Shown here: one piece after another, positions 12,301 through 64,000 of the stretch | Numbering within the stretch: position 1 is the first letter of the stretch | How the letters are laid out: every line of letters begins with the position of its first letter | Assembly: GCF_000308655.1 (NCBI RefSeq) | Contig: NZ_BAGC01000008.1 | Coordinates: 1 to 64,000, forward strand | Length of the DNA stretch: 64,000 bases | Source: Nocardia niigatensis NBRC 100131 | GTDB taxonomy: Bacteria; Actinomycetota; Actinomycetes; Mycobacteriales; Mycobacteriaceae | Reading direction: 5' to 3' | Program-made: the position numbers and the translations under genes | The notes under the pieces: model-generated | Databases searched by the model: none | Seen by the model: the letters and a program-made list of their open reading frames with translations, nothing else | Told to the model about the DNA's origin: nothing

Positions 12301-15300
12301 GGCGGCAAGGTCGAGCTGAACATCGACGCCGCCGCCCACCGCGCGCTGGTGGACCTGGCCCGCGCCGAGGGCGCGACCCTGTTCATGGTCGTGCACACCG
12401 CGCTGGCCGTGCTGCTGGCCCGCCTCTCCGGCACCGACGACATCGCCATCGGCACCCCGATCGCGGGCCGCGGCGAGGCCGAGCTGGACGACCTCATCGG
12501 CATGTTCGTCAACACCCTGGTCTTCCGCACCCGGGTGGACGCGGGCGCGAGCTTCACCGACCTGCTCGCCCGGCAGCGCGAGACCGATCTCGCCGCCTTC
12601 GCGCACGCCGACGTGCCGTTCGAGCGCCTGGTCGAGGTGCTCAACCCGGTGCGCTCCACGGCCCGCCACCCGCTGTTCCAGGTGGGCCTGTCGTTCCAGA
12701 ACCACAGCCAGGCCGGGCTGGAACTGCCGGAGCTGACCGTCGCGGGCCTCGACATCGACACCGAGCTGTCGCAGTTCGACCTGCACCTCATCGCCGCCGA
12801 CCGCTACAGCGAAACCGGCGAGCCCGCAGGGATTCTCGGACACTTCACCTACGCGACGGCCCTGTTCGACCAGGGCACCGTCGAAGGGTTCGTCGAACGC
12901 TTCGTGCGACTGCTGAGCAGCGTCGCCGCCGCGCCCGCCACCCCGGTGGGCGAGGTGGAACTGCTCGCGGCCGACGAGCGGGCGCGAATCCTGCAGGGCT
13001 GGAACGACACCCGGCACGAGGTCGACACCCGCGCCACGCTGGCGTCCCTGCTCGACCGGACCGCGCGCGAGCACGCCGGACGGACCGCCCTGGTCGCCGA
13101 CGGCGAGGGCGAACTGACCTACGCCGAACTCGCGCAGCGCGTGAATCGCCTGGCCCGCCGCCTGATCTCGCTGGGCGTCGGCCCCGAGTCCCGCGTGGCG
13201 CTGGCCCTGCGGCGCTCGACCGACCTGGTGGTCGCCATGTACGCGGTCACCGCGGCGGGCGGCGCGTACGTGCCCGTGGATCCGGATCAGCCTGCCGAGC
13301 GCACCGGCCACATCCTGGAGTCGGCCGCGCCGGTGTGCGTCCTCACCACCGCCGCGACCGGTTTCACGACCGGCCTCGCGCCGCTGGTCCGAATGGACGA
13401 GCCGGCAACGGATTCGGTCCCCGCCGGGCCGATCACCGACGCCGAGCGGGTCGCGCCGCTGCGCCCGGAGAACACCGCCTACGTCATCTTCACCTCCGGC
13501 TCGACCGGCCGCCCCAAGGGCGTGGCCGTGCCGCACGCGGCGATCGTCAACCAGTTGCTGTGGAAGACGGCCGAATTCGACCTGGGCGTCGATGACGCGG
13601 TGCTGCTCAAGACGGCGTCCACGTTCGACCTGTCGGTATGGGAATTCTGGTCCGCCGCAGTCTCGGGCGGCCGCCTGGTCATCGCCGAGCCCGAGGGCCA
13701 CCGCGACCCGGTGTACCTGAACGCGCTCATGGCGCGCGCGGCCGTGACCGTGCTGCACACGGTGCCGTCCATGCTGGACGCGCTACTGGCCGAATCGAAT
13801 TCGGCCGCCGGACTGGGCGCGCTGCGGCGCGTGCTGGCCATCGGCGAGGCCCTGCCCGGGACGCTGGCACAGCGGTTCCGCACCGCCTTCCCGGCGGTCG
13901 GCCTGTTCAACCTGTACGGCCCGACCGAGGCCGCGGTGTCCATCACCAACCATGAGGTCACCGCTGCCGACCGCGTCTCGGTGCCGATCGGCGCACCCGA
14001 ATGGAACAGCCGCGTCTACGTGCTCGACGCCCGGCTGCGTCCGGTGCCCGCCGGGGTGCCGGGCGAGTTGTACCTCGCCGGTGCGCAGCTGGCGCGCGGC
14101 TACTTCGGCCGTCCGGACCTGACCGCGGATCGCTTCGTGGCCGACCCGTTCGCTGTCGGGGAGCGGATGTACCGGACCGGTGACCTGGTGGCCTGGAACG
14201 CGATCGGTGAGCTGGAGTACCGGGGCCGTACCGACTTCCAGGTGAAGATCCGTGGTTTCCGTATCGAGCTCGGCGAGATCGAGGCGGCGCTGCTGGCGCT
14301 GCCGGAGATCGCGCAGACCGCGGTGCTGGCCAAGACCGACGCCAAGACCGGTGACCGGCTGGTGGCCTACCTGGTGCCGTCCGGCTCGGGTGTCGATGTG
14401 CCGCTGGTGAAGTCGGCCCTGTCGGCGGCGCTGCCGTCATACATGGTCCCCGCCGCCTTCGTTGTTCTCGACGCCCTGCCGCTGAACGTCAACGGCAAGC
14501 TGGACCGCACCGCGCTGCCCGACCCCGCCTTCGAGGCGGCCGTCTTCCGGGCCCCGGCCACCGCGCTGGAACAGACCGTGGCGGAGGTCTTCGCCGACGT
14601 CCTCGGTCTCGAGCGGGTCGGCGCGGACGACGACTTCTTCACCCTCGGCGGCAACTCGCTGCTGGCCACCCAGGTGGCGAGCCGGCTGCGCACCCTGACC
14701 GGCGCCGAGGTCCGGGTCGCGTGGTTCTTCACCGCGCCGACCGTGGCCGGACTCGGCGCGCAGATCCTGGCCGCGCTCGAGGGCGAGCACGACTTCGACT
14801 CCAATTCCGAAGCGGGCCTGCAGGTCGTGCTGCCGATTCGGGCCACGGGCACCCGGACACCGCTCTTCTGCGCCCCGCCCATGTCCGGAATGTCGTGGTG
14901 CTACGCCGGTCTGGCGCGCTTCCTCCCCGAGGACCAGCCGCTGCTCGGCCTGCAGTCGCCCGCCCTCACCGAGGCCGACTACGACCCGGCCGACCTGGCC
15001 GACGTCGCCCGCCGCTACGCCGCCGAAATGCGTGCGATCCAGCCGGAGGGCCCCTACCGGGTGCTCGGCTACTCGCTCGGCGGCATCCTGGCCTACGCCA
15101 TCGCCACCGAACTGCAGGCCGCCGGCCAGCAGGTCGACCTGGTCGCCATCCTGGACTCCTACCCGGAATCCAAGTCCGACTTCCGGACCTCGATCCTGGA
15201 CGAGTTCGCCACCATCGGCGTCGGCCCCGACGCCTTCCCCGACGGCGACCTGCTGAACCTGAGCGAGGAGGCGCTCATCGCGCTGCACGGCGCGGTGCCG

Positions 15301-28824: not shown

Positions 28825-30379
28825 TCACGCCACAGCCGTGGTGTGAACGTCGGTTCCCGCGTCATCCGGGACGGTTTCACCGGCACCCGCAGGGTGTCGG
28901 TCAGCGCCTTCCCGTCGGCGGGCATTGGTGACACGGCCTCCTGCTCGGGGGTCCGGGGATCGGAGAGAGTCTTCGTGTCGGAGCGTCGGCCAGACCGCCA
29001 GGTTGACCGCCGCGTTGAGGTCACGGTCGGCGCGAAACCCACACCCGCAGGCGAACACCCGATCCGACAACGTCAGCTCGGTGTTCACCTTGGTGCAGGC
29101 CGAGCAGCGTTTGCTCGACGCGTACCAGCGATCGGCGGTGACCACCTCACCGCTACGCCACTGTTGTTTGTAGCCCAGTATTCGGGCGAAGTCGCCCCAT
29201 GCGGCGTCGCCGATCGCGCGCGCCAGACGGTGATTGCCGAGCATGCCCGCGACGTTCAGGTCCTCGACCACGAGCCGGTCGTGGGTTTTGACCAGCATGT
29301 TGGTGACCTGATGCAGGAAGTGGCGGCGCATATTGGCGATCTGGTGGTGATGCCGCGCCAGCCCGGCGGCAGCTTCTGTGCGGTTGCGGGATCCTTTCTG
29401 TTTGCGGGACAAAGCTTTCGCCAGCCGCCGCTGCCGACGTAGCCCCCTGGCCAGGGGTTTGGGCGGATTGTCCATACGAGCGACCCCGGTACCGTCCACG
29501 GTGGCGGCGACCGGGAAACTCGACAACCCGCGATCGACACCCACCCTCGATGCCGGACCTGCCGAGTCGCGCCCTACCGCCTCGTCCTCGACCAGGTCCG
29601 CACCGTCGCCCCCGGCGTCGCCGAACTCGCCTGGGCCAACCGCGACTTCCTCATCCGCGCCTGCCGATCAGCCGGAGTCGTCGTCGGCCGCGCGCGGCGG
29701 GTGCTGGAGCGCGGGGTGGAGGTCGGCGGCCTCGACGGTGACGGTGAGCTGCCAGCGGCCCGCCCGCAACGTCACGGTGGTGTAGAGGATTTCGGCGCGT
29801 CCGCTGACGAGTATGCGCCGCAGGCGACGGGTGTCCTCCCGCACCCGGAGGGTTCCGAGACCGGGCAGGGTCACCGAGCGGGGAATCCCGTTGTCGTCGA
29901 TGCGGATCCCCGGACGACCGGCCTGGGAGATCTTGTTACGCAGCCGGAACGCCGGGGTGGTCGAGCTCTTCTTCTTGAATCGAGGAAATCCGACTCTCTT
30001 GCCCTTGCGTTTGCCGGTGCGGGAGTCGGCAAACGCGGTCAGGGCGCGGCCGCAGTCCACGGCGGATTCCTCGAACACCTGCTGGCACACCTCGCCGCGC
30101 CAGGCCAGGCCCGTCACCTCGATCGCGGCGATCCCGTGCGGGTCGACGGCGATCACCCGGCCGGCGTCCTCGGTCTTCTTCCAAGCGTTGAAGGCGTTGG
30201 CTGAATCCGGTCCAGGGCACCGGGTGAGCGGGATCTGTTTCGCGTTGGGTGAGTGCGGTTTTGACGAAGTCGAGGGACTTGTTGAACGCGAACCGTGCCG
30301 CGCCGGCGTGGCGGGCGAGCGCCCGTTGCTGCTCGACGGTGGGGTCGAGGCAGTAGCGGAAGGTGGTGTGGCGGCTCAT
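28825..30379 (-). pseudogene. tnpB: Broken IS605-type TnpB (RNA-guided nuclease of a mobile element)
   Basis: Read on the minus strand from ATG 30379, the N-terminus (MSRHTTFRYCLDPT, then a WNKS-like FAFNKSLDF) is TnpB. Near 30200 the frame shifts: the family's FDLINAFNAWK is represented by GF in one frame and NAFNAWKKTEDAG in the next. Translation would resume as VIAVDPHG. This second piece runs to 29668 and stops in DDDSG. About 140 foreign bases (roughly 29553-29695) precede the third piece (29544-28825), which carries RuvC Asp (GVDRG), RuvC Glu (VVEDLNVAG), a CSAC...CGCG zinc finger and the last RuvC Asp (RADRDLNAAVNLA). The nuclease residues survive but no continuous frame does. No TnpA is nearby. 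Any guide-RNA end would lie just below 28825. Confidence 0.85.
29553..29695 (+). other. Foreign segment inside the TnpB gene
   Basis: This stretch interrupts the TnpB reading between its zinc-finger-free middle and its RuvC domain. On the plus strand it reads openly as RLVLDQVRTVAPGVAELAWA and then NRDFLIRACRSAGVVVGRAR, which looks like real protein rather than TnpB read backwards. I do not recognise the source; it may be a scrap of another mobile element. Boundaries are approximate. Confidence 0.4.
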
Positions 30380-40370: not shown

Positions 40371-40633
40371 ATGCGGCCGCCCGGGCTCCGGAGGCCGGCG
40401 AAAGTTGTTCAAGCTGTGCGCGATACGACAGTCTCGACCTCGATCTGGTGGGCGCTGCCTGTGTCGCGCCGGCGGATGAGTTCGATACGCCACTCCAACG
40501 CACTATTGTCGACAATACCGGCTAAGCGGACATACCGAACCGTTCATTCTTGAGTGCTTATCGGAGCCGCTGCTAACCTCGCCACCGTGTCCGGATTCGG
40601 TCACGGCTAATCGAGCGCGATCGGTGAGTTGGC
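40371..40633. other. Region without a recognised gene before the fusion gene
   Basis: No intact gene is seen. One plus-strand frame reads DSLDLDLVGAACVAPADEFD and TPLQRTIVDNTG before a stop and may be another decayed coding scrap. No confident promoter or hairpin is visible; the local base composition is less GC-rich than the flanks. Confidence 0.4.
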
Positions 40634-43600
40634 ATGCTCGACAATGTTTTACGGATCGCCATTGTTGGAATGGGACCGCGGGGTCTGAATGTTTTCGAAC
40701 GTCTCTGCGCGAACGCGCGGCAGTTAGGCATCTCGGCCGGGGTCGAGCTGGTGGTCATCGACTCGAAACGGGTTGGGACCGGGGCGGTCTGGCGCACCGA
40801 CCAATCCGCGCACCTGCTGATGAACACCGTTGCCGAGCAGGTCACCGTATTCACCGATGACACCGTGGAGATGGCGGGCCCGGTGGATCGCGGTCCCAGC
40901 CTCTACGAGTGGTCGAACTTCCTGGCGAAAATCGGCAATTTCGCGGGACTGCCCAGCGGGGCGTTCGGCGCGGCAATGCGGATTTCCCCGGATAGCTATC
41001 CGCCGCGCGCCTATTACGGCCATTACCTGCGTTGGGCCTTCGAACGCACCCGTGACCGCTATGCCGAATGGGTGCGGGTGCGCGAAATCGTGGCAACCGT
41101 GGTGGACCTGCGCGACGGACCCGGCGGATTCCAGGAACTGGAACTCGGCACCGGCGAACGAGTGCGCGGCCTGCACGCGGTGGTGCTCACCCAGGGCCAT
41201 CTGTCCGAGGCGCCGCCCGCCACCGCCGGGTCGATGGCCGACACCGCACATCGCCTGGGCCTCACCTACATCCCGCCCGGCAATGCCGCCGACGTTGATC
41301 TGGACTGCGTCCCCGAGCGGGAGCCGGTCATCATCCGCGGCCTGGGCCTCACCTTCTTCGACTATCTGGCCCTGCTGACGGCGGGCCGGGGCGGCCGGTT
41401 CAAGGAGTCCGAGGCCGGGCTGGAGTACATCGCTTCGGGCCGGGAGCCGCTCATCGTGACCGGCTGCCGCCGCGGCGTCCCGCATCACGCGCGCGGCGAG
41501 CATCAGAAGGGTGTGGACGGTCGCTACGAGCCCCTGCTGCTGAACCGTGACCGCATCGACCGATTGCGGCAGCGGGCCAGGAAATTCGGCGACGTCTCCT
41601 TCCGGCGCGACGTCTGGCCGCACATCGCGCGCGAGGTCGAGTCGGTCTACTACACCCGCTTGATCGCGGATCGGGTCAGCCCGCGCCGCCTGGCCTCCTT
41701 CCGCGACCGCTACCTGATCGCCCCGACCGCCGAGGCCGGCGACGAGCTGCTGAACCGTTTCGGTATTCCGGAGCGGGACCGCTGGGACTGGAGCGCGCTC
41801 GCCGACCCCACCGGCGGCCGCTGCTTCACCGATCCCGCGGACTTCCACGGCTGGCTGCTGGCCTACCTCGACGCGGATGTGCGGCAGGCCCGCCTGGGCA
41901 ATGTGCACGGCCCCGTGAAGGCGGCCCTGGACGTCCTGCGCGACCTGCGCAACGAGGTGCGCCTGGTGGTCGACCACGGCGGCATAGCGGGCTCCTCCTA
42001 TCGGGACGACCTCGATCGCTGGTACACGCCGATGAACGCCTTCCTGTCCATCGGCCCACCGGCACAACGGATCTCGGAACTGGCGGCACTGATTCGCGCG
42101 GGTGTGGTGCGGGTCGCCGGTCCCGGCATGCGGGTCCGGGCGGACACCAGGCACGAGTGCTTCGTCGCCGATTCACCGCTGGTCGGTGAGTCGGTGGCGT
42201 CGGCACGGACTCTCATCGATGCCTGGATGCCCGCGCCGGACCTGCATCGCACCGGAGATCCCCTGCTGCGCAACCTGTTGCGCCGCGAGGAGGTGCGGGC
42301 CTACGTCTTCGCCTCCCCGGACGGCAGTCGCTACCGCACCGGTGGGCTCGCGCTGGCGCCGGGTTCGTTCCATCCGGTGGACACTCTGGGGCGAATCCAC
42401 CCGCGCCGCTACGCCTTCGGAGTGCCGACCGAGGCCGTGCGCTGGGTGACCGCGGCGGGCGCGCGCCCCGGGGTCAATTCGGTGACATTGGCCGACGGTG
42501 ACGCCATCGCCCGCGAGATCCTCACCGCCCACCGCTACGAGGGTCCGGCGATCCCGTCGAATCAGCATGGGATGCGCAGGCATTCCGAATTCGCGCACGA
42601 GTGTGAAAGGCACGGCGACATGGAATGCGGTCTGCTGGCCCCGGTCGGGGTGGGCACCCCGGTGGAGTCCCTGCTGAGCGACGACGCCTGGATCGAGGCC
42701 ATGCTGGAGGTGGAGCTGGCGCTGGCGCGCGCCGAGGCCCGCCTGGGCATGGTGCCCGACACCGTCACCGATCATCTGGCGGTGGCGGTGCGCGAGCACG
42801 CCTTCGACGCCCGCGAGATCGCCCAGGCTTCGCGCGGCGCCGCCAATCCGGTGGTGACCTTCGTGGAACGGCTGCACGACGCGGTGGCGGACGTGGATCC
42901 GGTGAGCGCCAACTATGTGCACTACGGCTCCACCAGTCAGGACATTCTCGACACCGCGACCATGGTGATCGCCTCCCGGGTGCTGGCCGTCGTGATCGCC
43001 GATCTGGACACGGCGGTCGCCGCGCTGGCCGAGCTGGCCCGCCGCCACCGCACCACGCCCATCGCGGGCCGCACCCTCGCCATGCACGCGGTGCCGACGA
43101 CGTTCGGCGCGAAGGTGGCGGTGTGGATGCAGGGCCTGCTCGACGCCCGCGAACGCCTGGATCGGGTGCGCGGTACGCTGCCGGTCCAATTGGGCGGTGC
43201 GGCAGGCACTCTGGCGTCCTATATCGAGTGTGCGCGATGTGCGGACTCGGAGCTGGCGCAGGCGCCCGCCGGTGAGATCGTGGAGCGCCTCACCCGCGAG
43301 TTCGCCGCCGAACTCGCACTCGCGGTGAGCGCCGCCCCCTGGCACACGGTGCGCACCCCGATCGCCGATCTGGCCGCGGCTCTGGCCCTCACCTCGGGGA
43401 CGCTCGGCAAGCTGGCCGTGGACGTGATCTCCCAGTCCCGCAACGAAACCGCCGAATTGCTGGAGCCGGTCGCCCCGGGCCGCGGCGAGTCCTCGGCCAT
43501 GCCACAGAAGCGAAACCCGGTGCTGAGCACCATGATTCGGGCGGCGGCGCTGCAGGTGCCCGCGCTGGCCTCGACGCTGTTCGGTGCGCTGCTGGCCGAG

Positions 43601-44002
43601 GACGAGCGTCCGGCCGGCGCCTGGCATGCCGAATGGCAGCCGTTGCGCGAATGCCTGCTGCTGGTCGGCGGCGCCGCCCACACCGCGGTCGAACTCGCCT
43701 CCGGGCTGATGGCCGACGCCGATCGCATGACCGAGAACCTCGCGCTCACCGAGGGGCAGATCGTCGCCGAACGCCTCTCGAGCCGCCTGGCGCCGTTGCT
43801 GGGCAAGCCGATCGCGAAGAAGGCCCTGCAAGCCGCCTCGTTCGAGGCGCAGACCACGACGCGGCCGCTGGCCGATGTGCTCGCCGAATCTCCCGATATC
43901 GCCGGGTATCTCACCAAACCCGAACTGGCCGAGCTGCTCCGCCCCGAGAACTACCTCGGCGCCGCGCCCGACCTGGTCGACCGGGTGCTGCGGAGATTAT
44001 GA
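40634..44002 (+). CDS. CreE-like flavin monooxygenase fused to a CreD-like lyase
   Basis: A 1,122-residue two-enzyme fusion. Residues 1 to about 640 are an NAD_binding_9-type flavoprotein: FAD fold VGMGPRGLNVFERLCANAR at 10-28, then a MNTVAEQVTVF region and GLGLTFFDYLALLT. Residues 663-1122 are an adenylosuccinate-lyase/PcaB-type lyase: HYGSTSQD near 762 and the signature loop SSAMPQKRNP near 952, containing the catalytic Ser. The pair matches CreE (aspartate to nitrosuccinate) and CreD (nitrosuccinate to fumarate and nitrite) of the nitrous-acid pathway, known to me as separate proteins. ATG 42620 at the lyase start has AAAGG nine bases upstream, so the lyase may also be made alone. No diazotising partner gene adjoins it. 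Both family calls are firm; the Cre assignment is probable. Confidence 0.7.
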   Translation: MLDNVLRIAIVGMGPRGLNVFERLCANARQLGISAGVELVVIDSKRVGTGAVWRTDQSAHLLMNTVAEQVTVFTDDTVEMAGPVDRGPSLYEWSNFLAKIGNFAGLPSGAFGAAMRISPDSYPPRAYYGHYLRWAFERTRDRYAEWVRVREIVATVVDLRDGPGGFQELELGTGERVRGLHAVVLTQGHLSEAPPATAGSMADTAHRLGLTYIPPGNAADVDLDCVPEREPVIIRGLGLTFFDYLALLTAGRGGRFKESEAGLEYIASGREPLIVTGCRRGVPHHARGEHQKGVDGRYEPLLLNRDRIDRLRQRARKFGDVSFRRDVWPHIAREVESVYYTRLIADRVSPRRLASFRDRYLIAPTAEAGDELLNRFGIPERDRWDWSALADPTGGRCFTDPADFHGWLLAYLDADVRQARLGNVHGPVKAALDVLRDLRNEVRLVVDHGGIAGSSYRDDLDRWYTPMNAFLSIGPPAQRISELAALIRAGVVRVAGPGMRVRADTRHECFVADSPLVGESVASARTLIDAWMPAPDLHRTGDPLLRNLLRREEVRAYVFASPDGSRYRTGGLALAPGSFHPVDTLGRIHPRRYAFGVPTEAVRWVTAAGARPGVNSVTLADGDAIAREILTAHRYEGPAIPSNQHGMRRHSEFAHECERHGDMECGLLAPVGVGTPVESLLSDDAWIEAMLEVELALARAEARLGMVPDTVTDHLAVAVREHAFDAREIAQASRGAANPVVTFVERLHDAVADVDPVSANYVHYGSTSQDILDTATMVIASRVLAVVIADLDTAVAALAELARRHRTTPIAGRTLAMHAVPTTFGAKVAVWMQGLLDARERLDRVRGTLPVQLGGAAGTLASYIECARCADSELAQAPAGEIVERLTREFAAELALAVSAAPWHTVRTPIADLAAALALTSGTLGKLAVDVISQSRNETAELLEPVAPGRGESSAMPQKRNPVLSTMIRAAALQVPALASTLFGALLAEDERPAGAWHAEWQPLRECLLLVGGAAHTAVELASGLMADADRMTENLALTEGQIVAERLSSRLAPLLGKPIAKKALQAASFEAQTTTRPLADVLAESPDIAGYLTKPELAELLRPENYLGAAPDLVDRVLRRL

Positions 44003-54531: not shown

Positions 54532-54592
54532 CCTAAAGTGGTTGGCGGGTTGTGCGAGGCGGGCAACAGTGAGCAACTGGGACGGAGAACCG

Positions 54593-55888
54593 GTGGAAAC
54601 GCTTCTGGTGGTCGGCGCGGGGCCGAAAGCCCTGGCGGTAGCGGCCAAGTCGCATGTGCTGCGAGAACTCGGCCTGCCCGCGCCGCGGGTGACCGTGGTC
54701 GAGGCACAGACGGTCGGCGGAAACTGGCTACCCACCGGCGGCTGGACCGACGGCCGGCACCGCCTGGGCACCAGCCCCGAGAAGGACGTCGGCTTCCCAT
54801 ACCGCTCGACCTGGGCGCGCGGCCGCAACCGCGATATCGACACGGCCATGCGGGCTTTCAGCTGGACCGCCTTCCTCGTCGAGCACGGCACCTACGCCGA
54901 ATGGATCGATCGCGGCCGGCCCAGCCCGCAGCATCACGTCTGGGCCAAGTACCTGCAGTGGGTAGCCCGGCGCATCGACCTGGATCTGGTGCAGGGCGCG
55001 GTCACCGGTATCGCCGCCGCGGCCGACGGCTGGCTGGTGTCGGTCACCGATGCCGACGGCGGCGTGGACGAGCTCGATTGCGACGCGGTGATGATCACCG
55101 GACCCGGCCGCAGCGACCGCGCGCTGGCCGAGCATCCGAAGGTGCTCAGCATCAACGAGTTCTGGGAGCTCGCGGGCCGCCGCGCCCTGCCCGCGTCCTC
55201 GCGGGTGGCGGTGATCGGCGGCGGTGAGACCGCGGGGTCGGCGCTGGACGAGCTGGTCCGCCACGAGATGCTCACCGTCTCGGTGATCTCGCCCAAGGCG
55301 ACGCTGTACACGCGTGGTGAAAGCTATTTCGAGAACTCGCTCTACAGTGATCCGACCAAGTGGGCGGGCCTGGGCATGGCCGAGCGTCGCGATGTCATCC
55401 GGCGGACCGACCGCGGCGTGTTCTCGGTGCGGGTGCAGGAAAGCCTGCTGGGGGACAACAGGGTTCACCATCTGCAGGGCCGGGTCGTGCACCTCGCCGA
55501 CCAGGACGGTCGGGTCGTGCTGACCCTGCGCAACGAGCTGCGCGCCGATCAGAACCACACCTTCGATCTGGTGGTGGACGCCACCGGCGGTCAGCCGCTG
55601 TGGTTCCTGGACCTGTTCGACGCCGCCGCCACCGATCTGCTGGAGCTGGCGGTCGGGGGCCCGCTGGAGTCGTCCCGGCTGGAGGCGGCCATCGGCTACG
55701 ACCTGGCGGTGTCCGGGCTGGACGCCAAGCTGTATCTGCCCAACATGGCCGCCATGGCGCAGGGTCCGGGTTTCCCGAATCTCAGCTGCCTGGGCGAGCT
55801 GTCGGACCGGATCCTGCAACCGGCGCCGAATCCGGGTCCGCGCTACCGGATCTCGGGCAGGTCGGCCGCGGTGCGAGGCAGCGCGTAG
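54593..55888 (+). CDS. nbtG: Lysine N6-hydroxylase of nocobactin synthesis
   Basis: A 431-residue FAD/NADPH N-hydroxylating monooxygenase, homologous to mycobacterial MbtG, which oxidises the lysine side-chain amine so that it can become a hydroxamate iron ligand. Motifs: FAD fold VVGAGPKALAVAAK at the N-terminus, GGWTDGRHRLGTSPEKDVGF nearly identical in character to MbtG, NADPH fold VIGGGETAGSALDEL, and the C-terminal PNMAAMAQGPGFPNLSCLG. GTG 54593 gives the MbtG-like N-terminus with GGAG just upstream; GTG 54569 is in frame too. The gene is iron-boxed and its end overlaps nbtH tail to tail by 46 bases. Confidence 0.93.
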   Translation: METLLVVGAGPKALAVAAKSHVLRELGLPAPRVTVVEAQTVGGNWLPTGGWTDGRHRLGTSPEKDVGFPYRSTWARGRNRDIDTAMRAFSWTAFLVEHGTYAEWIDRGRPSPQHHVWAKYLQWVARRIDLDLVQGAVTGIAAAADGWLVSVTDADGGVDELDCDAVMITGPGRSDRALAEHPKVLSINEFWELAGRRALPASSRVAVIGGGETAGSALDELVRHEMLTVSVISPKATLYTRGESYFENSLYSDPTKWAGLGMAERRDVIRRTDRGVFSVRVQESLLGDNRVHHLQGRVVHLADQDGRVVLTLRNELRADQNHTFDLVVDATGGQPLWFLDLFDAAATDLLELAVGGPLESSRLEAAIGYDLAVSGLDAKLYLPNMAAMAQGPGFPNLSCLGELSDRILQPAPNPGPRYRISGRSAAVRGSA

Positions 55889-56499
55889 AGCGAGATGCGC
55901 CGATCCGGCCGGACGTCGAAGTCGCCCAGATGTTGCCACCCGATCTTCTCCAGCGCCTTCCGCATGGGGATGTTGCGATGATCCGGTTCGCACAGCAGCC
56001 GGCGGCATTCGGGTTCGGCCGCCAGGATCGCCTGCCCCAGCAGGCGCATCCAGCCCGACATGACGCCGCGGCCCAGCAGCGTGGTGTCCGCGGTGGCGAT
56101 GTGGAACCCCATGTCGCGGGGGTCGGCGTCGTAGAGGCGCGCGATCTCGTCCTTGGCAGGCCGGTACAGCTCGACGTAGGCCACCTCGCGGTTGCCCAGT
56201 TCGGGCCGGTCCAGGGCGGCGAAGTCGTATTCGAGAAGGCAAGGGCGGGAGAAGGTTCCGTCGAGTTGCGCCCCGCAGTCGGCGCGGCGCCGGTCGGCGT
56301 CCCAGGCCTGTTCCCAGGTCTCGAGCAGGTGCGGCCGGTGCATCCACTCGGTGATGGTCTCCGGATCGCGGGAGTCGACGTCCACGAGCCGCAGCCTGAA
56401 GGGCGCGGCGAACTCGGGCACCACCGGCGCGGGCGCGCGGCGGACGCGGTCGGGACGGTCCGTGAGTTCGCGCGCGAGGACGTAGGTCGTCCGGTTCAT
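55843..56499 (-). CDS. nbtH: Lysine N-acyltransferase of nocobactin synthesis (MbtK-like)
   Basis: A 218-residue GNAT-like acyltransferase of the IucB/RhbD/MbtK type, which transfers an acyl chain to the hydroxylated lysine amine. FRLRLVDVDSRDPETITEWM, the HPxxxETW-like RPHLLETWEQAW, YVELYRPAKDEIA and MGFHIATADTTLLGRGVMSG are the family landmarks; C-terminal RRLLCEPDHRNIPMRKALEK is the acyl-CoA cleft region. ATG 56499 has GGAG eight bases upstream. It diverges from nbtA and lies just left of an iron box, and converges on nbtG with overlapping ends. Confidence 0.9.
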   Translation of the reverse strand: MNRTTYVLARELTDRPDRVRRAPAPVVPEFAAPFRLRLVDVDSRDPETITEWMHRPHLLETWEQAWDADRRRADCGAQLDGTFSRPCLLEYDFAALDRPELGNREVAYVELYRPAKDEIARLYDADPRDMGFHIATADTTLLGRGVMSGWMRLLGQAILAAEPECRRLLCEPDHRNIPMRKALEKIGWQHLGDFDVRPDRRISLYALPRTAADLPEIR

Positions 56500-56539
56500 C
56501 GCTGTGGCGCTCCGTTCGTCGGTTAGCTTGATCACCCCA

Positions 56540-56558
56540 GTTAGTAAGGCTAGCCTAT
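56540..56558. promoter_or_regulatory. Iron box between nbtH and the nbtA operon
   Basis: GTTAGTAAGGCTAGCCTAT matches the IdeR consensus at 13 of 19 positions with an intact centre AAGGCTA-GCCTA. Further TTAG/CTAA half-sites flank it (56522-56572), so an extended or double site is possible. It sits between the divergent nbtH and nbtA starts. Confidence 0.65.
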
Positions 56559-56655
56559 ACTAACTAGGTGGTGTTACGGTTGCCCGGACATTGCAAGGGG
56601 GACAAGCGGAACCGGCGCCCACTGTGGTCGGGCAGTTGTAGGAGAGATTCGGAAA

Positions 56656-57411
56656 ATGGCACGGGAACTCGGCTGGATCAGGCAATTTCAGGCCCCGAGT
56701 GCGGAATCCGCGCCACCGCTGCTGGTCTTCCCGCACGCCGGTGCGGGCGCCTCGGCCTATCGGGTGTTCGCCAAGACCATGGCCGCCGACTTCGATGTCG
56801 TGGTGTTCCAGTACCCGGGCCGTCAGGACCGGGCCCGCGAGGCCGCCATGGAGACGCTGCCCGAGATCGCGGCCGGCGCCTTCGCCGCCTTCCGGGAATC
56901 CGCGCACGAAACCGGTGTTCCCCTCACCATTTTCGGGCACAGCATGGGCGCGGTCATCGCGTTCGAATTCGCCCGCCTGGCCGAGGCCGCGGGGCTGGGC
57001 GTGCGGCTGCTGGTCGCCTCCTCGGCCGCCGCACCCGCCCGGATCGCCGACCTGCCGGGGCATCCCACCGAGGACGAAGCCCTGCTCGACCACATGTCGG
57101 CGCTCAACGGCACCGGCGCGGAGGTACTGGGCAGCCGCGACGTGCTGCGCATGGCGCTTCCGGTCATGAAGGCCGACTACCGTGCCTTCGACGCCTATTC
57201 GTGCGCGGCCGACATCGCGGTGGACGCGCCGATCCTGGTGCTGGGCGGTGACGAGGACGAATTCGTCGCGCCGCGCGATCTGTACGCGTGGGAAGGCCAC
57301 AGCCGCGGCGGAATTCGCGTCACCCTGTTCACGGGCGGGCACTTCTACCTCGACGACCATGTGCACGGCATCGCCGAACTGCTGGCCGCGGAGAAGAGCG
57401 TCGTCGCATGA
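56656..57411 (+). CDS. nbtA: Type II thioesterase of nocobactin synthesis
   Basis: A 251-residue stand-alone thioesterase that would remove wrong or stalled acyl groups from NRPS/PKS carrier domains. The nucleophile is Ser96 in FGHSMGAV, PHAGAGASAY forms the oxyanion region, an acidic residue lies in GGDEDEFV and the catalytic His in TGGHFYL (near 229). GGAGAG at 56641 precedes ATG 56656. First gene of the nbtA-nbtB-nbtC-nbtD operon, coupled to nbtB by an ATGA overlap, and just right of an iron box. The symbol follows the Nocardia farcinica naming as I recall it. Confidence 0.88.
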   Translation: MARELGWIRQFQAPSAESAPPLLVFPHAGAGASAYRVFAKTMAADFDVVVFQYPGRQDRAREAAMETLPEIAAGAFAAFRESAHETGVPLTIFGHSMGAVIAFEFARLAEAAGLGVRLLVASSAAAPARIADLPGHPTEDEALLDHMSALNGTGAEVLGSRDVLRMALPVMKADYRAFDAYSCAADIAVDAPILVLGGDEDEFVAPRDLYAWEGHSRGGIRVTLFTGGHFYLDDHVHGIAELLAAEKSVVA

Positions 57412-58721
57412 GCGCGCCGGATTCCGGCGATCCCATCGTGATCGTCGGCATGGGTATCGAGGCGCCCGGCGGCATCGACACCCTGCCGGAATTCTGGGCG
57501 GCCCTGGCGGCCGGGCGGGAACTGATCGGTCCCTTTCCCCGTGATCGGGAATGGCCGCTGGCCGAATTGCTGACCTTGGACCGCCACGAGGGCTGGGCCG
57601 CGGTGCCCGACGCCGGCGGATTCCTGACCGGCGCCGCAGATTTCGATCCGCTGTTCTTCGGCATCACCCCGCGCGAGGCGGTGGCCATGGATCCGCAGCA
57701 GCGGGTCGGCCTGCGGGTGGCCTGGCGGGCGCTCGAGCAGGCCGGAATCAATCCCGATGCGGTGGACGGTGATTCGGCCGGGTGCTGGATGGGCGCCTCG
57801 GTCATGGAGTACGGGCCGCGGGCGGCCTCGGTCAACGAGTACAGCGGGTACCGGGCCACCGGCACCGCGCTGGGCGCGGTGGCCGGGCGGATCTCGCACG
57901 GGCTGGGCCTGACCGGGCCGTCGGTCACCGTCGACACCGCGTGCGCCTCCGCGCTCACCGCCGTGCATCAGGCGGCCGCCGCCCTCCGGGCGGGGGAGTG
58001 CGAGTGGGCGCTCGCGGGCGGCGTGTGCGTCATGGGTTCGCCGGGCGCGTTCTACGAGTTCTCCAAGAACAACGCGCTGGCAGCCGACGGGCACTGCCGC
58101 TCCTACTCCGCCGACGCTACCGGCACGCTCTGGGGTGAGGGTGCGGGAGTCGTTGTGCTGGAACGGGAGTCGCGGGCGCGGGCGCTCGGGCATCGGGTGT
58201 ACGGGCGGCTGCTGGGCTCGCGCGTCAACCACAATGGCAAGGGCGCGCCGATCGCGGTGCCGAGCGCGGCGGCGCAGGAGCGCCTCATTCGCGACACCCT
58301 GGCCGCATCCGGTGTCGCCGCCGAACAGGTCGGGCTCATCGAGGGCCACGGCACCGGGACCCCGGTCGGCGACCCGCTCGAATTGACCGCGCTCGCAGCC
58401 ACTTACGGCGTTCCCGGTGGCGTGGCGCGGCTGGGCTCGGTGAAGTCCAACGCCGGCCACGCGCAGGCCGCCTCCGGACTGCTGGGCCTGATCAAGGTGC
58501 TGCTGGCGGGCGTGCACGGGCAGATCCCGCGCACCCTGCACGCCCAGCGCCCGACCGCCGACATCGAGTGGGCCGGCACCACACTGCGGCTCGCCACCGA
58601 ACTCGAATCCTGGGCCGCCGTGGACGGCATGCGGTACGCGGCCGTGTCCTCGTTCGGTGTCGCGGGCACCAACGCCCACGCCCTCGTCGGCCTGCCCGAG
58701 CTGGAGGAAATCGATGTCTAG
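57408..58721 (+). CDS. nbtB: Stand-alone ketosynthase of nocobactin synthesis (MbtC-like)
   Basis: A 437-residue beta-ketoacyl synthase that should add a malonyl-derived unit to the growing siderophore chain. The triad is complete: Cys179 in DTACASA, His314 in EGHGTGTPVGDP and His351 in KSNAGHAQAASG. It is one KS domain with no AT or carrier, which the next gene supplies, as with mycobacterial mbtC/mbtD. It overlaps nbtA at its start and nbtC at its end, so all are translationally coupled. Confidence 0.92.
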   Translation: MSAPDSGDPIVIVGMGIEAPGGIDTLPEFWAALAAGRELIGPFPRDREWPLAELLTLDRHEGWAAVPDAGGFLTGAADFDPLFFGITPREAVAMDPQQRVGLRVAWRALEQAGINPDAVDGDSAGCWMGASVMEYGPRAASVNEYSGYRATGTALGAVAGRISHGLGLTGPSVTVDTACASALTAVHQAAAALRAGECEWALAGGVCVMGSPGAFYEFSKNNALAADGHCRSYSADATGTLWGEGAGVVVLERESRARALGHRVYGRLLGSRVNHNGKGAPIAVPSAAAQERLIRDTLAASGVAAEQVGLIEGHGTGTPVGDPLELTALAATYGVPGGVARLGSVKSNAGHAQAASGLLGLIKVLLAGVHGQIPRTLHAQRPTADIEWAGTTLRLATELESWAAVDGMRYAAVSSFGVAGTNAHALVGLPELEEIDV

Positions 58722-61700
58722 CCACCGGCTGCCCGATGGCAGCATCCCCGTCCTGCTCTCGTCAGACGCCGCCGACGGCGTGCGCGCCGAGGCTGCGGGC
58801 ATCCTGGCCTACCTGGAGCAGCGGCCCACCGTGACCCCGGATCGGGTGTCGGACATGCTGTTCCGCACCCGCACGGCCCGCCGGCACCGGGCGCTGGCCA
58901 TGGTCACCGGGCGCGAGGAACTCCTCGACGCCCTGGGCGCGATCATCGACGGGGTCTCGCATCCCGCCGTGGTGCTGGGTGACGGTCCCGCCACCGTGCG
59001 CCGGATCGGCTTCGTCTTCCCCGGTCAGGGCAGTCAGCGACCCGGCATGGGCACGCTGTACTATGAGCTGTCCCCGGTCTACCGGGCCGCCGTCGACGAG
59101 TGCGCGGCCGTGCACGCCGAGCGCTTCGGCCACGATCAGCCGCTGCACTATCTGCTCGGCACCGCGGGCGCGTACCAGGACACGGTGTGGGAAGTGCAGC
59201 CCGCCTTGATGTTCCACATGGCCGGGCTGGCCGCCATGTGGCAGGCCGCCGGTGTGAGCCCGGCCGCCACCATCGGTCACAGTCAGGGCGAGCTGGCCGC
59301 CGGCGCGGTCTCGCGGGTCATGTCGGTGCGCGACGCCGTGCTGGTCGTCGCCCACCGCGCGCGCCTGGTCGAGCGCCTCTCGCCGCGCGGCTACGCCATG
59401 GCCGTGCTGGCCATGAACCGCGAGGATTGCGAGGCCCTGCTGGCCCGACATTCCGGCTGGGCCGAGTTGTCGGTGGTGAACGCCCCGCACGTCATGGCCA
59501 TCTCCGGTGACCGCGACACCATCGCCGACATGGTCGCGACCGCCACCGAGCGCGGCCACTTCGCCCGCGAGATCGGAGTCGCCTATCCGGCGCACACCTC
59601 GATCGTGGCGGAGCTGCGCGCGGACTTCGAAGGCTTCCTGGGCGGCGAACTGAGCAGAGCGACCTTCACCGAGACCGAGATCCCCTGCTACGGAGCGACT
59701 CTCGGTGCGCGCATCACCGCCGATCTGATCCAGGAACAGTACTGGTACTGGAACCTGCGCAACCGTGTCCGCTTCGATCGCGCCGTGGTCGCCGCCGCCG
59801 TCGACGGCATCGACACCCTCATCGAGGTCGTCGAGCACCCCGTCCTGCAGCTGGCTCTTCAGGAGAATCTCTCCCTGGTCCCGCGCGACCCTTCGCGCGC
59901 TCCCCGCGACTTCAAGGTCCTGGGCACCTCCCTGCGCACCGCGACCTCGCTGCGGGAATTCACCCGCAACCTGGCCGCCGTCGCCGTCGCCGATCTCGCC
60001 TACGACTGGACCGCACTGCGTACCGGCGCGGCCCCGGCCCTCCCACTGCGCGACTTCCCGCATACGGTCATGAACCCCAAGCGCCTGTGGGCCGCCCCCG
60101 GTTATGCCCCGGAGGCGGTGCACCCGCCGGTCCCGGCCGCACCCAAACCCCAACGCCTGGTGGAGAAATGGACGCCCTGGGAGCGCCGCTCCCTCACCGC
60201 GCCCCGCCACCTGGCCTTCGTCGACCCGACCGGGCGCTGCGCCGATCAGCTCTCGGCCCTGCTCGCCGCCGCCGACCGCTACGGCGCGAACGCGACGGTG
60301 CTCACCGCGCCGAAGTCCGCGGAGGACAGAGCTTCCGGTCGCTTCGATGTGAGCGCGGTCCTGGACCTGGCCGAGATGGCCGCCGTCGTCGCCGAGAACG
60401 GCGCACCGGAAGCCGCCGACGGCGTGCTCGGCGAAATCCTTGCCGCCCAAGCGACTTCGGAACTATCGGCGGAGACCTTCGACAGTGTCGTGATCCTGTG
60501 GCCCGCGCTGCCGGAGGCCACCGGCGCGGCGGCTGTCGCCGAGCTGAGCGAATTCTTCGCCGGGCGCGCGTGGTTGCCCGCGCTCGCCGGCGTGCGCCCG
60601 GGCGGCGACTGCTGGCTGGTGACGGTCGGCGGTGAGGTCGTGGTGCCCGAGGACGTGGTGCCGCACCTGTTCCACGGGGCCGTGGCGTCCGGATTCCGGT
60701 GTATCGGTGTGGAGCGGCCCGGCGTGCTGTTCCGGCATCTGGATCTCGCGGCCGATGCCGGAACCGGTGAAGCGAATCGGATTGTGGCGGCGCTGCATAC
60801 GGCCGGTGAGCCGGACGTGGCGCTGCGCGGCGGAAAGGTGTTCGTCAAGCGGCTGGTCGTGGACGAGTCCGCGCCGGGCGCGCCCGCCGATCTCGATCAT
60901 GTGCTGATCGTGGGCGGCACCGGCAAGCTCGGGCTGCTGTTCGCCGAGGACTTCGCGCGGCAGGGCGCGGGACGGATCACGGTGGTGAGCCGGTCCGGCG
61001 AATCCGGCACGGCCGCCGAGGAAGTGGCGCGGCTGCGGATGCTCGGCGCCACCGAGATCGTGGTCGCGGCCTGCGACATCAGCGATGTGGACGCTGTCGC
61101 GATCCTCGCGGCCGGGCTGGAGCAGCGGCCGGTGAGCCTGCTCGTCCACGCCGCCGTCAACTATGTGGACGCCGGCATCGAGGAGATCACCGCCGAGATG
61201 GTGGCCACCGCCGCCGCCTCGAAGGCGCTGGGCCTGGAGGCCGTGCTCGACGCGGTGCCGCTGGCCCCGGCCGGGCGGGTGCTGCTGTGCTCGTCCATGG
61301 CCGCGACACTCGGCGGGCGCGGGCAGATTCTGTACGCCGTCACCAACCGGATGCTGGACATCCTCGCCCGCCGGGTGCGTGCGCGGGGTATCGATTGCTC
61401 CGCGTTGGAGTGGGGCCTGTGGAGTGTCGCGGGACCGCTCGACGCGGCGGGCATGGCACGGGTCGAGGGCGCCGGCGTGTACCCCATGAACCCGGCCGAT
61501 GCCATCGCCGCCGGATTCACCGGGCAGCCGACCGACGCGGTGGTGATCTCCGCGGACTGGGCGTTCCTGCGCGATGTCATGGGCGCCTTCGGGCAGGCCG
61601 CGGTGCTGTCGGAAGTGCCGGAGCCCGAACCGATGACACCGGCGCGCATCGATGATGCGGCACTGGCGGTTCCGAGCGCGAATCGGGCTGTCGCGGAACC

Positions 61701-61986
61701 GGCTCCGGTATCGCCCGTTGTCGCCGAGCGGCCGGTGGCCGCCGCACCGGCCCTCCCGCTGGCGGATCAGGTGCTCGCCGAACTCGAGCGGGTCATGGGC
61801 ATCGGCGCGGGCGACACCATCGACCGCTCCACGCCGCTGGTCGCACTGGGCCTGGATTCGTTGCAGGCCTTGGACTTCCGCAAGCGGGTGCAGGCGTCGC
61901 TGGACCTGGAGCTGCCGGTCGCGGCGATCCTGGGCGGCGCGTCGCTGGACGATGTCGTGCTGCTGATGGCAGAGAACACCAACTAG
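58714..61986 (+). CDS. nbtC: PKS with AT-KR-ACP of nocobactin synthesis (MbtD-like)
   Basis: A 1,090-residue polyketide synthase without its own ketosynthase. Acyltransferase: FVFPGQGSQRPGMG near residue 100 and Ser190 in GHSQGELAAG; the selectivity region reads YPAH, neither the HAFH of malonyl nor exactly the YASH of methylmalonyl types. Ketoreductase: LIVGGTGKLGLLF near 733, Ser in VLLCSSMAA and Tyr874 in LYAVTN. Acyl carrier: Ser1049 in LGLDSLQ. ATG 58714 has GGAGG upstream and overlaps nbtB. Together NbtB and NbtC make one reducing extension module. Confidence 0.92.
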   Translation: MSSHRLPDGSIPVLLSSDAADGVRAEAAGILAYLEQRPTVTPDRVSDMLFRTRTARRHRALAMVTGREELLDALGAIIDGVSHPAVVLGDGPATVRRIGFVFPGQGSQRPGMGTLYYELSPVYRAAVDECAAVHAERFGHDQPLHYLLGTAGAYQDTVWEVQPALMFHMAGLAAMWQAAGVSPAATIGHSQGELAAGAVSRVMSVRDAVLVVAHRARLVERLSPRGYAMAVLAMNREDCEALLARHSGWAELSVVNAPHVMAISGDRDTIADMVATATERGHFAREIGVAYPAHTSIVAELRADFEGFLGGELSRATFTETEIPCYGATLGARITADLIQEQYWYWNLRNRVRFDRAVVAAAVDGIDTLIEVVEHPVLQLALQENLSLVPRDPSRAPRDFKVLGTSLRTATSLREFTRNLAAVAVADLAYDWTALRTGAAPALPLRDFPHTVMNPKRLWAAPGYAPEAVHPPVPAAPKPQRLVEKWTPWERRSLTAPRHLAFVDPTGRCADQLSALLAAADRYGANATVLTAPKSAEDRASGRFDVSAVLDLAEMAAVVAENGAPEAADGVLGEILAAQATSELSAETFDSVVILWPALPEATGAAAVAELSEFFAGRAWLPALAGVRPGGDCWLVTVGGEVVVPEDVVPHLFHGAVASGFRCIGVERPGVLFRHLDLAADAGTGEANRIVAALHTAGEPDVALRGGKVFVKRLVVDESAPGAPADLDHVLIVGGTGKLGLLFAEDFARQGAGRITVVSRSGESGTAAEEVARLRMLGATEIVVAACDISDVDAVAILAAGLEQRPVSLLVHAAVNYVDAGIEEITAEMVATAAASKALGLEAVLDAVPLAPAGRVLLCSSMAATLGGRGQILYAVTNRMLDILARRVRARGIDCSALEWGLWSVAGPLDAAGMARVEGAGVYPMNPADAIAAGFTGQPTDAVVISADWAFLRDVMGAFGQAAVLSEVPEPEPMTPARIDDAALAVPSANRAVAEPAPVSPVVAERPVAAAPALPLADQVLAELERVMGIGAGDTIDRSTPLVALGLDSLQALDFRKRVQASLDLELPVAAILGGASLDDVVLLMAENTN

Positions 61987-62005
61987 GGCTAGGGGCCAGA
62001 TCTTC

Positions 62006-64000
62006 ATGTCAGACACCGATGCCACCGTGACCGTGGCCGGAACCTCCGTCGCCGACCGCCGCCGGGAGCTGCTGCGGCGCAAGCTCGCCGAGCAGGGTCT
62101 TACCGCCGCCACCGCCGCACCGGTGCGCCGCACCCGGGCCGGGGAGCGGCGTCCGCTGTCGGCCGGGCAGCGTCGCATGTGGTTCCTGCAGACCCGTGAC
62201 CCCGAGGACACCACACTGAACATCTGTGTGGCGTACCGGCTCACCGGCGCGCTCGACGAGCAGCGCCTGCGGACCGCGGTGGCGGCGGTGTTCGCGCGGC
62301 ATGACGTGCTGCGCACCACCTTCGGCGTGGACGCGGACGGCGAGCCGTTCCAGGTGTTCACCGACGACATCGCGCTGCCGTGGCAGTCGCACGATCTGAC
62401 CGATCTGGCCGAGTCCGCCCGCCCGGTGCGAGTGGAGGTGCTGGCGCGCCGGGAATTCGGCCGCCCCTTCGACCTGGCCACCGAGCTGCCGTTGCGAATC
62501 ACGCTGGTGCGCAACGGAACCGCGGAGTGGGTGCTGCTGCTGGCCGCCCACCACGGCTGCTGGGACGACGATGCCTGGGGCGTGTTCTTCACCGACCTCA
62601 ACGCCGCCTACAACGGGGCCGGGACCGCCGCCCCGGCCGCGCAGTTCGTCGACCTCGAGGTCCTGGACGCCCCGGCCGAGGACGCCGCCGACCTCGCCTA
62701 CTGGCGGAACACCCTGCGCCCCTTGCCCGAACCCCTCGAACTCCCCGGCTCGGCCGTGGTCGCACCGTCGAAGCGCGCCGACCGCTGCACGATCGCGCTG
62801 CCCGCCGGTCTCCTGGACCGGGTGGACGGCTTCGCCCGCGAGCACGCGGCCAGCCCGTTCATGGTGCTGCTCGCCGGCTACGCCGCCCTGATCCAGCGCT
62901 ACACCGCCGCCGACGATTTCCTGGTCTCCATTCCGGTCACCAACCGGCGCTCGGCCACCGCCGAACAGCTCATCGGCTATTTCGGCAACACGCTGCTGCT
63001 GCGCGAGACCTTCGACCGCGCCGAGACGTTCGCCGGTCTGGTCGCGGCCACCAAGCGCACCTGCCTGGACGCCTTCGCCCATCAGGCCGTCGGCATCGAC
63101 CGCGTGGTGCGCGAGGTGAACCCGGAGCGCGTCGCCGGCCGCGACGGCATGGATCAGCTGGTGCGCCTGGGCTTCAGCGTTCGCAAGAGCGCCGACGGCT
63201 TCGCGCTGGACGGCGTCACCTCGGCCCAGCTCGACGAGCTGGGCGCGCCCACCGCGCAGGTCCCGCTGGTCCTCGCCGTCGTCACCGAGAGCGCGCACGG
63301 CGCGGTGCTCGAGGCCGAATACCAGGTGGACGTGCTGCACCGGGCGCTGGTACAGCGCATGCTGGAACACTACGCGCGGCTGCTGGACCGGGCGCTGAGC
63401 ACGCCCGGCAGCCGGCTCGCCGACCTCGACATGCTGGGCGGGGACGACCGCCTCGCCATCCTGGAACAGTCGCGCGGCGCGGACGTCCCGGCCGACCCGG
63501 CCACCATGGTCGACCTGTTCGAGGCTGGTGTCGCCGCCGGACCCGAGACCCTGGCCCTGGTCTCCGACGATCTCGAACTCACCTACGCGGAGCTGAACCG
63601 ACGCGCGAACCGGCTGGCGCACTGGCTGATTCGCGAGGGCGTCGGCAGCGAGGACATCGTCGCCCTGCGCATGAGCAACTCGGTCGAGTTCATCGTCGCC
63701 GTGTACGGCGTCCTCAAGGCGGGCGCCGCCTACCTGCCCATCGACCCGGCCTACCCGGACGACCGCATCGACTACCTGATCGCCGACGCGGGCCCGCGCC
63801 TGGTGCTGGGCCGCGTCGAACTCGACGCCGCCGAGGAGGCCGCCGCCGGGCTGCCCGACCGCGATCCCACCGACGCCGACCGCGTCCGCCCGCTGCTGCC
63901 GGCGAACCTGGCCTACGTCATCTACACCTCGGGCTCGACCGGCAGGCCCAAGGGCGTCCCGGTCTCGCACGCCGCTATCGCCGAGCACGTGGTCGGCTTC
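62006..64000 (+). CDS. nbtD: NRPS of nocobactin synthesis, 5' part (MbtE-like)
   Basis: The first 665 residues of an NRPS that continues beyond the window. A short basic N-terminus (SVADRRRELLRRKLAEQGL) leads into a condensation domain (LSAGQRRMWFLQ; active site AAHHGCWDDD, HHxxxDD rather than HHxxxDG, with the catalytic second His kept). An adenylation domain begins near 63510 (LTYAELNRRANRLAHWL), with [10 protein letters not shown] near 63928. ATG 62006 is 19 bases after nbtC with AGGGG upstream. By position it matches MbtE, which activates lysine in mycobactin; the specificity residues lie partly outside the window. Confidence 0.88.
   Translation, partial: MSDTDATVTVAGTSVADRRRELLRRKLAEQGLTAATAAPVRRTRAGERRPLSAGQRRMWFLQTRDPEDTTLNICVAYRLTGALDEQRLRTAVAAVFARHDVLRTTFGVDADGEPFQVFTDDIALPWQSHDLTDLAESARPVRVEVLARREFGRPFDLATELPLRITLVRNGTAEWVLLLAAHHGCWDDDAWGVFFTDLNAAYNGAGTAAPAAQFVDLEVLDAPAEDAADLAYWRNTLRPLPEPLELPGSAVVAPSKRADRCTIALPAGLLDRVDGFAREHAASPFMVLLAGYAALIQRYTAADDFLVSIPVTNRRSATAEQLIGYFGNTLLLRETFDRAETFAGLVAATKRTCLDAFAHQAVGIDRVVREVNPERVAGRDGMDQLVRLGFSVRKSADGFALDGVTSAQLDELGAPTAQVPLVLAVVTESAHGAVLEAEYQVDVLHRALVQRMLEHYARLLDRALSTPGSRLADLDMLGGDDRLAILEQSRGADVPADPATMVDLFEAGVAAGPETLALVSDDLELTYAELNRRANRLAHWLIREGVGSEDIVALRMSNSVEFIVAVYGVLKAGAAYLPIDPAYPDDRIDYLIADAGPRLVLGRVELDAAEEAAAGLPDRDPTDADRVRPLLPANLAYVIYTSGSTGRPKGVPVSHAAIAEHVVGF

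Follow-up and report, generated by a model that had tools for sequence, protein, structure and literature searches.

A single gene of Nocardia niigatensis NBRC 100131 probably encodes a real, conserved and working nitrous acid pathway, as judged from its sequence and from its relatives. The gene lies in the 64,000-nucleotide stretch of contig NZ_BAGC01000008.1 analysed here (the window) and is one open reading frame (ORF) for a protein of 1122 residues, P0001, in which a flavoprotein resembling the aspartate N-hydroxylases FzmM and CreE is followed by a lyase resembling the nitrosuccinate lyase CreD. We propose a one-ORF aspartate-nitrosuccinate pathway with dual translation, as the complete fusion and as a free lyase, from a gene that stands alone. 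We assign this reading as a whole a probability of about 0.6. The features are listed in Table 1.

Table 1. Features of the fused gene and its upstream region in the window.
Feature	Positions	Strand	Basis
Fused ORF, 1122 residues (P0001)	40634..44002, stop codon included	+	ATG start, no internal stop
FzmM/CreE-like aspartate N-hydroxylase half, residues 1–631	40634..42526	+	8cp2 match, residues, tree, fold
Linker, residues 632–662	42527..42619	+	Length and sequence vary among copies; pLDDT below 50 at 635–668
Internal Shine-Dalgarno-like GAAAGG, in the fused frame Glu-Arg (GAA AGG)	42605..42610	+	
Internal ATG in frame (Met663), proposed initiation codon of free lyase	42620..42622	+	
CreD-like nitrosuccinate lyase half, residues 663–1122	42620..43999	+	5xny match, NF052556 score, residues
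GGTGAG, likely ribosome-binding site of fused ORF	40623..40628	+	Within stretch invariant in ten aligned loci
TAACCT, possible -10 element	40574..40579	+	TANNNT in ten aligned loci; inferred
TTGAGT, possible -35 element	40550..40555	+	Conserved region, ten clade A loci; inferred
TACCGAACCG, possible operator, just upstream of possible promoter	40533..40542	+	Conserved in clade A

Architecture of the fused protein

The original prediction had a flavoprotein and a lyase joined in one frame, CreE-like and CreD-like respectively. The joining is real: the ORF runs through both parts and is intact in other genomes. The identity of the halves is borne out by sequence, residues, tree and fold. P0001 contains the Pfam domains NAD_binding_9 (residues 9–189), Lyase_1 (685–975) and ADSL_C (1041–1118). 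In a PDB search the best solved relative of residues 6–631 was entry 8cp2 (E = 8.8e-166), the aspartate N-hydroxylase of Streptomyces sp. V2, whose PDB title names FzmM; that of residues 663–1121 was CreD from Streptomyces cremeus (5xny, E = 9.1e-133). Identity amounts to 52% over 592 positions for the hydroxylase half and 54% over 453 positions for the lyase half. The SSAMPQKRNP loop of the latter begins at residue 953, and NF052556 is the best of 13 NCBIfam families for this half by a margin of more than 220 bits.

An AlphaFold2 model of P0001, calculated from an alignment of 38 window and locus sequences, has a mean predicted local distance difference test score (pLDDT) of 84 and a predicted template modeling score (pTM) of 0.58. 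Most of both halves is confident; values are below 50 at residues 635–668 and in part of the catalytic loop (947–958). Superposition of the predicted halves on solved structures gave template modeling (TM) scores, normalized by target length, of 0.95 for the hydroxylase half with 8cp2_A and 0.94 for the lyase half with 5xnz. The mutual placement of the two halves was not taken from the model.

Residues of the two active sites

Published residues were mapped onto P0001 via the alignments. For the hydroxylase we used the 13 substrate and cofactor positions described in PMC10404684 (8cp2 numbering: R13, W51, N62, R266, R276, R409, R412, N413, R416, V571, R577, R593 and R597). The lyase residues, including the fingerprint E49/H118/D125/H253/R341 and the loop SSxMPxKRNP, come from PMC13411527. 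Twelve of the 13 aspartate entry-chamber and cofactor residues are identical in the hydroxylase half, and the lyase half keeps all of its 19 published residues, among them the complete CreD fingerprint and the loop. Given this set, P0001 would very likely convert L-aspartate to nitrite and fumarate via nitrosuccinate.

Across 16 fused proteins, 28 of the 30 checked residue columns are invariant. The two varying ones are R960, replaced by His in locus L110, and H904, replaced by Gln in loci L040 and L041. Since H904 corresponds to the fingerprint position H253 of CreD, the lyase chemistry of L040 and L041 may differ.

Linker and candidate internal start of the lyase

The linker between the halves is 24, 25, 37 or 38 residues long, and its frame is open in all 17 fused genes compared. 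Each of the 17 linkers carries a Shine-Dalgarno (SD)-like hexamer (GAAAGG in 13, GAAGGG in three, GAGAGG in one) followed by an in-frame start codon (ATG in 14, GTG in two, TTG in one; the GTG and TTG codons belong to N. brasiliensis and N. vulneris). Hexamer and start are 6 to 9 nt apart in 14 genes. An 18th fused copy, at the ribosomal site of genome G116, likewise has GAAAGG, nine bases and ATG.

This arrangement is rare elsewhere in coding sequence. Among the 174,752 codon pairs of 601 called genes from 28 loci, GAA-AGG occurs 13 times, 12 of them at linker sites. At positions -20 to -6, GAAAGG precedes 21 of 582 called gene starts (24 of 583 in a slightly wider window) versus none of 582 control offsets; it precedes none of 2808 other in-frame internal ATGs, the 11 sites excluded from that count all being linker sites. 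AGG makes up 2% of Arg codons and TTG 8% of Leu codons, and this codon choice indicates that conservation in the linker acts on the nucleotides.

The same signal occurs where the two proteins are separate. In the overlapping pairs L048–L052 (from N. transvalensis, N. brasiliensis, N. vulneris and Antrihabitans cavernicola), which belong to the same clade as the fused gene, GAAAGG-N9-ATG likewise stands ahead of the lyase. Their flavoprotein, unlike that of P0001, is encoded in a shifted frame that terminates 11 nt beyond the lyase ATG, and these loci should therefore yield two proteins. GAAAGG-N9-ATG is absent ahead of the lyase in L054 and L055, two separate pairs that branch earlier. Taken from these sequence patterns, it is rather likely that the linker start is used and a free lyase is also made.

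Phylogeny of the two halves

Trees of each half were calculated from 57 of 88 rows with both halves, keeping a fixed set, mostly of Nocardiaceae, and alternate rows of the remainder; L020, L028–L031 and L079 had been dropped before the 88 rows were counted. A flavoprotein grouping tree comprised 34 loci and 8cp2 (CreE itself is not in this tree), and a tree of the joined halves had 29 rows. The copy at the ribosomal site of G116 is outside all trees and alignments.

The original prediction would have been refuted had the flavoprotein half grouped away from CreE/FzmM. Instead, it shares a 31-row group with 8cp2 and the actinobacterial pairs at a support of 99 in the Shimodaira-Hasegawa-like approximate likelihood ratio test (SH-aLRT); the more distant Nocardia flavoproteins L028–L031 fall apart from this group. 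In the tree of each half, one Nocardiaceae group contains the fused copies, the stop-split locus L039, the overlapping pairs and the separate pairs L054–L056, the last branching earlier within it. L113, another separate Nocardia pair, lies outside. Placing the fused state on the tree of the joined halves takes two changes, and a single clade of fused copies was rejected for the 16 fused rows (approximately unbiased test, p-AU 0.0094). The trees are most simply read as a single fusion, in an early ancestor of the Nocardiaceae group, and a single later split. Such a split would have come easily, since the lyase had retained its own start. Several independent fusions are possible.

Distribution, selection and loss

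In 73 of 150 Nocardia genomes we found a match at E 1e-60, mostly covering a single half; intact fused copies, 18 in total, are present in 16 of the 150. This number rules out a chance fusion or a sequencing or assembly error as the origin of the fused frame. Among named records the fusion occurs in Nocardia and in Antrihabitans stalagmiti. No stop-free fusion was present in 392 sampled Streptomyces genomes, where two chained matches at E 1e-210 each contain one TGA (L173, L174). In an earlier sample of 199 Streptomyces genomes, 97 had a match at E 1e-120, the best being a single half (2.1e-199). A phylum-wide sample of 396 genomes gave seven with a match at 1e-150, with the fusion only in the genome studied here. 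In Nocardia sp. CDC159 (L039:9947-13291) the flavoprotein and lyase stand in the same frame with one TGA between them.

The compared fused copies are under purifying selection. For four pairs, all among the window, N. seriolae, N. concava and N. terrae, the ratio of nonsynonymous to synonymous substitution rates (dN/dS) is 0.13–0.15 in the flavoprotein half and 0.07–0.12 in the lyase half. The gene has also been lost repeatedly at its site beside the ribosomal operon: the near relative G023 retains a 173-bp remnant there (L153:9242-9400), and G149 has a broken fused copy (L114). Loci L154 and L155 have the same flanks with other genes between them and no trace of the fused gene.

Genomic setting and upstream region

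In 11 genomes, which we call clade A, a fused copy lies by itself next to the S10 ribosomal operon. They comprise the genome of the window, N. seriolae, N. concava, N. terrae, N. yamanashiensis, N. inohanensis, N. acidivorans, two more named records, L115 and G116. All 11 intact copies lie downstream of S17 and upstream of a DUF5997/LysR region, where the locus reaches that far. In some clade A species the interval between S17 and the fused gene contains a short ORF or genes for MFS, MarR and glyoxalase proteins; of the latter three genes no remnant was detected in the upstream gap of the window at E 1e-3.

About 110 bp upstream of the fused ORF are conserved in an alignment of ten clade A loci. 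The possible operator reads TACCGTACCG in three close relatives and is similar in the rest of the aligned loci. A consensus promoter scan of the region upstream of the ORF gave no sigma-70 site. The fused gene probably has its own promoter. A structured RNA was considered for the upstream region and set aside; the two Rfam matches were below their gathering scores (the better one with E 8e-4, on the minus strand).

Fused copies outside clade A are located elsewhere, in cluster-like settings, and in three further genomes the fused copy is within approximately 7 kb of an AMP-ligase gene. In N. brasiliensis and N. vulneris (L040:2085-13321, and likewise L041 and L053) the fused gene is the last of a cluster encoding, in order, a KASIII protein, a protein without Pfam match, a fusion of an ABC1 kinase with a GSA-type aminotransferase, an AMP-ligase and an FMO-like flavoprotein. 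This is a candidate cluster for a natural product with a nitrogen-nitrogen (N-N) bond.

Fate of the nitrite

The absence of a nearby CreM-like diazotase, noted at the outset, holds for the 37 of 46 called window genes that were scanned with Pfam, in which AMP-binding domains are found only in genes of the nonribosomal peptide synthetase (NRPS) type. The other nine genes encode eight ribosomal proteins and a 69-residue ORF. In genome-wide searches the genome of the window had no match to the AvaA6 diazotase model NF058622 at E 1e-40 (best 38 first-look candidates scored per genome) and none at E 1e-60 to an A1 ligase model that we built from four ligases standing near fused copies (best 53 candidates scored per genome). 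At these limits the AvaA6 model matched one of 23 genomes, G111, at 2.8 kb from the separate pair of that genome. The A1 model matched eight of 27; among clade A genomes with an intact copy this was only G116, at 1.7 kb from a second fused copy. Nine of the 11 clade A genomes, including the one studied here, match neither model at limits that weaker or divergent ligases would escape: for the ligase near L110 the AvaA6 model gave 8.4e-40. Whether this genome has no dedicated N-N partner at all is, on these results, an even call. Further A1-type AMP-ligases (G092:C12, G131:C2 and G067:C1:4848208) are on another contig than the fused or paired genes or far from them.

Formation of nitric oxide (NO) by a copper nitrite reductase was set aside, because none of 13 genomes exceeds the cut-off of TIGR02376; the genome of the window has one sub-threshold match of 153 bits. 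Assimilatory NirB is encoded in all 13, including G023, which lost the fused gene, so that recycling of nitrite to ammonia gains no specific support.

Comparison with known systems

The CreE-like and CreD-like proteins were at first thought always to be separate. This does not hold: Streptomyces albospinus has, in its spinamycin cluster, the natural CreE-CreD fusion SpiED (WP_189300634.1), according to PMC11705231. The fusion as such is therefore already known and not new here. PMC11429834 names the protein SpiED in one place and SpiD and SpiE in another. SpiED, which we compare by its description only, has the CreE-like part followed by the CreD-like part in one frame, as in the Nocardia protein. 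In contrast to the Nocardia gene, SpiED belongs to a biosynthetic cluster with the CreM-like SpiA7 (PMC11429834). A Nocardia fusion of this kind was not found in the literature searched, which leaves out most subscription journals.

The hydroxylase half of P0001 belongs to the same clade as FzmM/CreE (8cp2) and shares nearly all of the mapped residues with it, but it is fused to a lyase, has Thr631 in place of Arg597 and sits on a Nocardiaceae branch of its own. The lyase half agrees with CreD in all mapped residues and in the loop; unlike CreD, it is carried on a flavoprotein and is preceded, within the ORF, by its own candidate start signal. The new points are the embedded lyase start, the stand-alone place at the ribosomal operon and the absence of a recognised partner.

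Proposed mechanism and alternatives

Based on these results we propose the following course. The mRNA would be read from position 40634 to give the 1122-residue fusion and also from the internal ribosome-binding site and the ATG at 42620 to give a free lyase of 460 residues. The N-terminal flavoprotein, with FAD, NADPH and O2, would oxidize L-aspartate stepwise to nitrosuccinate, which the C-terminal lyase, a member of a homotetramer-forming family, would cleave to nitrite and fumarate. With two translation products, lyase tetramers would mix fused and free subunits. The original prediction that the fusion channels nitrosuccinate is weakened in its simple form, since the internal start implies free lyase and the linker is predicted to be disordered; some channelling may nevertheless occur. 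Because the gene is alone and probably has its own promoter, the nitrite would not be meant for a neighbouring cluster. It would be used in trans, or as nitrite itself or its product.

Several points weigh against this proposal. At the tunnel mouth of the hydroxylase, Arg597 of 8cp2 is replaced by Thr631. The lyase half scores 607.8 bits on NF052556, below the curated cut-off of 650, and we therefore claim likeness to nitrosuccinate lyase and not formal NCBIfam membership. Ranked by duplex energy, the linker start comes first among the internal in-frame sites in only four of 17 genes; its rank is 1 of 83 in the window and, at worst, 10 of 95 in L038. This ranking is not decisive. In L040, L041 and L053 the gap between the SD-like site and the start is 12 nt, which is long for a start, and the linker start lies 3 to 6 residues before a conserved Gly-Leu-Leu at no fixed column. 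The 16S tail pattern was not found in the draft genome. The linker site counts are not independent, as many loci are closely related, and the gene starts are those predicted by a caller of our own that slightly favours SD-like sites. Finally, deletion in the near relative G023 and breakage in G149 mark the gene as dispensable.

A plain bifunctional fusion would make the 1122-residue protein only, with the GAAAGG-ATG of the linker as a vestige or as a ribosome pause that aids stepwise folding. Such a protein agrees with the open frame across linkers of all four lengths in 17 genes, with the stronger predicted pairing at other internal sites in 13 of them and with the description of SpiED simply as a fused protein (PMC11705231). 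A vestige should decay, however, whereas the rare AGG codon is kept while neighbouring residues vary; a pause site needs no start codon, yet ATG, GTG or TTG precedes the Gly-Leu-Leu in all 17 genes. We consider production of the fusion alone rather unlikely. Other chemistry is the least probable alternative: nitrosuccinate could be released and decarboxylate to 3-nitropropionate, or another amine could be used. Hydroxylases of the family make nitrosuccinate and fungal relatives are predicted to lead toward 3-nitropropionate (PMC10404684), and CreD can run in the synthetic direction (PMC13411527). All aspartate entry-chamber residues are kept, however, and the lyase half has the full published set including SSAMPQKRNP.

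As to the role of the gene, it could be a functionless relict that is being lost after a move from a biosynthetic cluster to the ribosomal-operon site. The remnant in G023 and the broken copy in G149, both at that site, would fit, as would the lack of partner genes beside the fused gene; the low dN/dS across both halves, the invariance of the checked residues in ten aligned clade A copies, the conserved upstream region in ten loci and the 11 intact clade A copies make this highly improbable. Possible, though less likely than not, is that the nitrite feeds an N-N product from another locus through an enzyme outside the two ligase models, such as KinJ, the membrane protein AzpL or divergent CreM types. 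There is precedent in the azamerone producer, whose creE-creD operon is away from the product cluster (PMC11705231); KinJ-type heme enzymes use nitrite and have homologues in Nocardia (PMC12154649), and other fused Nocardia copies sit near AMP-ligases. Against this stand the lack of AvaA6 and A1 matches in the genome of the window, the single AvaA6 match in 23 genomes and the restriction of A1 matches in clade A to G116.

Other genes of the window

Two NRPS genes occupy positions 23-18231; one product, of 4989 residues, contains a thioesterase and no fewer than four condensation domains. They were set aside as users of the nitrite, being beyond the ribosomal operon. Positions 28825-29544 on the minus strand encode a short IS605 OrfB/TnpB-like protein of 239 residues that is probably incomplete. 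Downstream of the fused gene, an EXLDI protein (TIGR04342; 45784-46332) has a LysR regulator on one side and an MMPL transporter on the other; clade A loci extending to this point show the same arrangement. A Lys/Orn monooxygenase, a GNAT acetyltransferase, a thioesterase, a ketosynthase, an AT-KR-ACP protein and a condensation-adenylation protein are encoded at 54569-64000, in what looks like a siderophore cluster of the nocobactin/mycobactin type. These genes begin approximately 10 kb downstream of the fused gene and were likewise set aside as nitrite users; since their order is not shared with the clade A loci reaching there, we do not link them to it.

Implications

In its furthest form our proposal combines a two-product gene, in which each lyase tetramer bears a variable number of flavoprotein arms, with a stand-alone nitrite source in clade A that has its own promoter and works for the cell itself rather than for a secondary-metabolite cluster, nitrite or NO acting as a signal, a weapon or a stress agent. 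We put this combination forward tentatively and regard it as unlikely in all its parts at once.

If both proteins are made from one ORF, the gene would be a natural example of a fusion that keeps a tetrameric partner supplied with free subunits. Fusion and fission would then stay interchangeable, because the start signal of the second gene is never lost. The fused enzyme would be a handy single-gene nitrite source for biocatalysis. As a stand-alone source of nitrite in 11 Nocardia genomes, the gene would make a role of nitrous acid outside N-N natural products directly testable.

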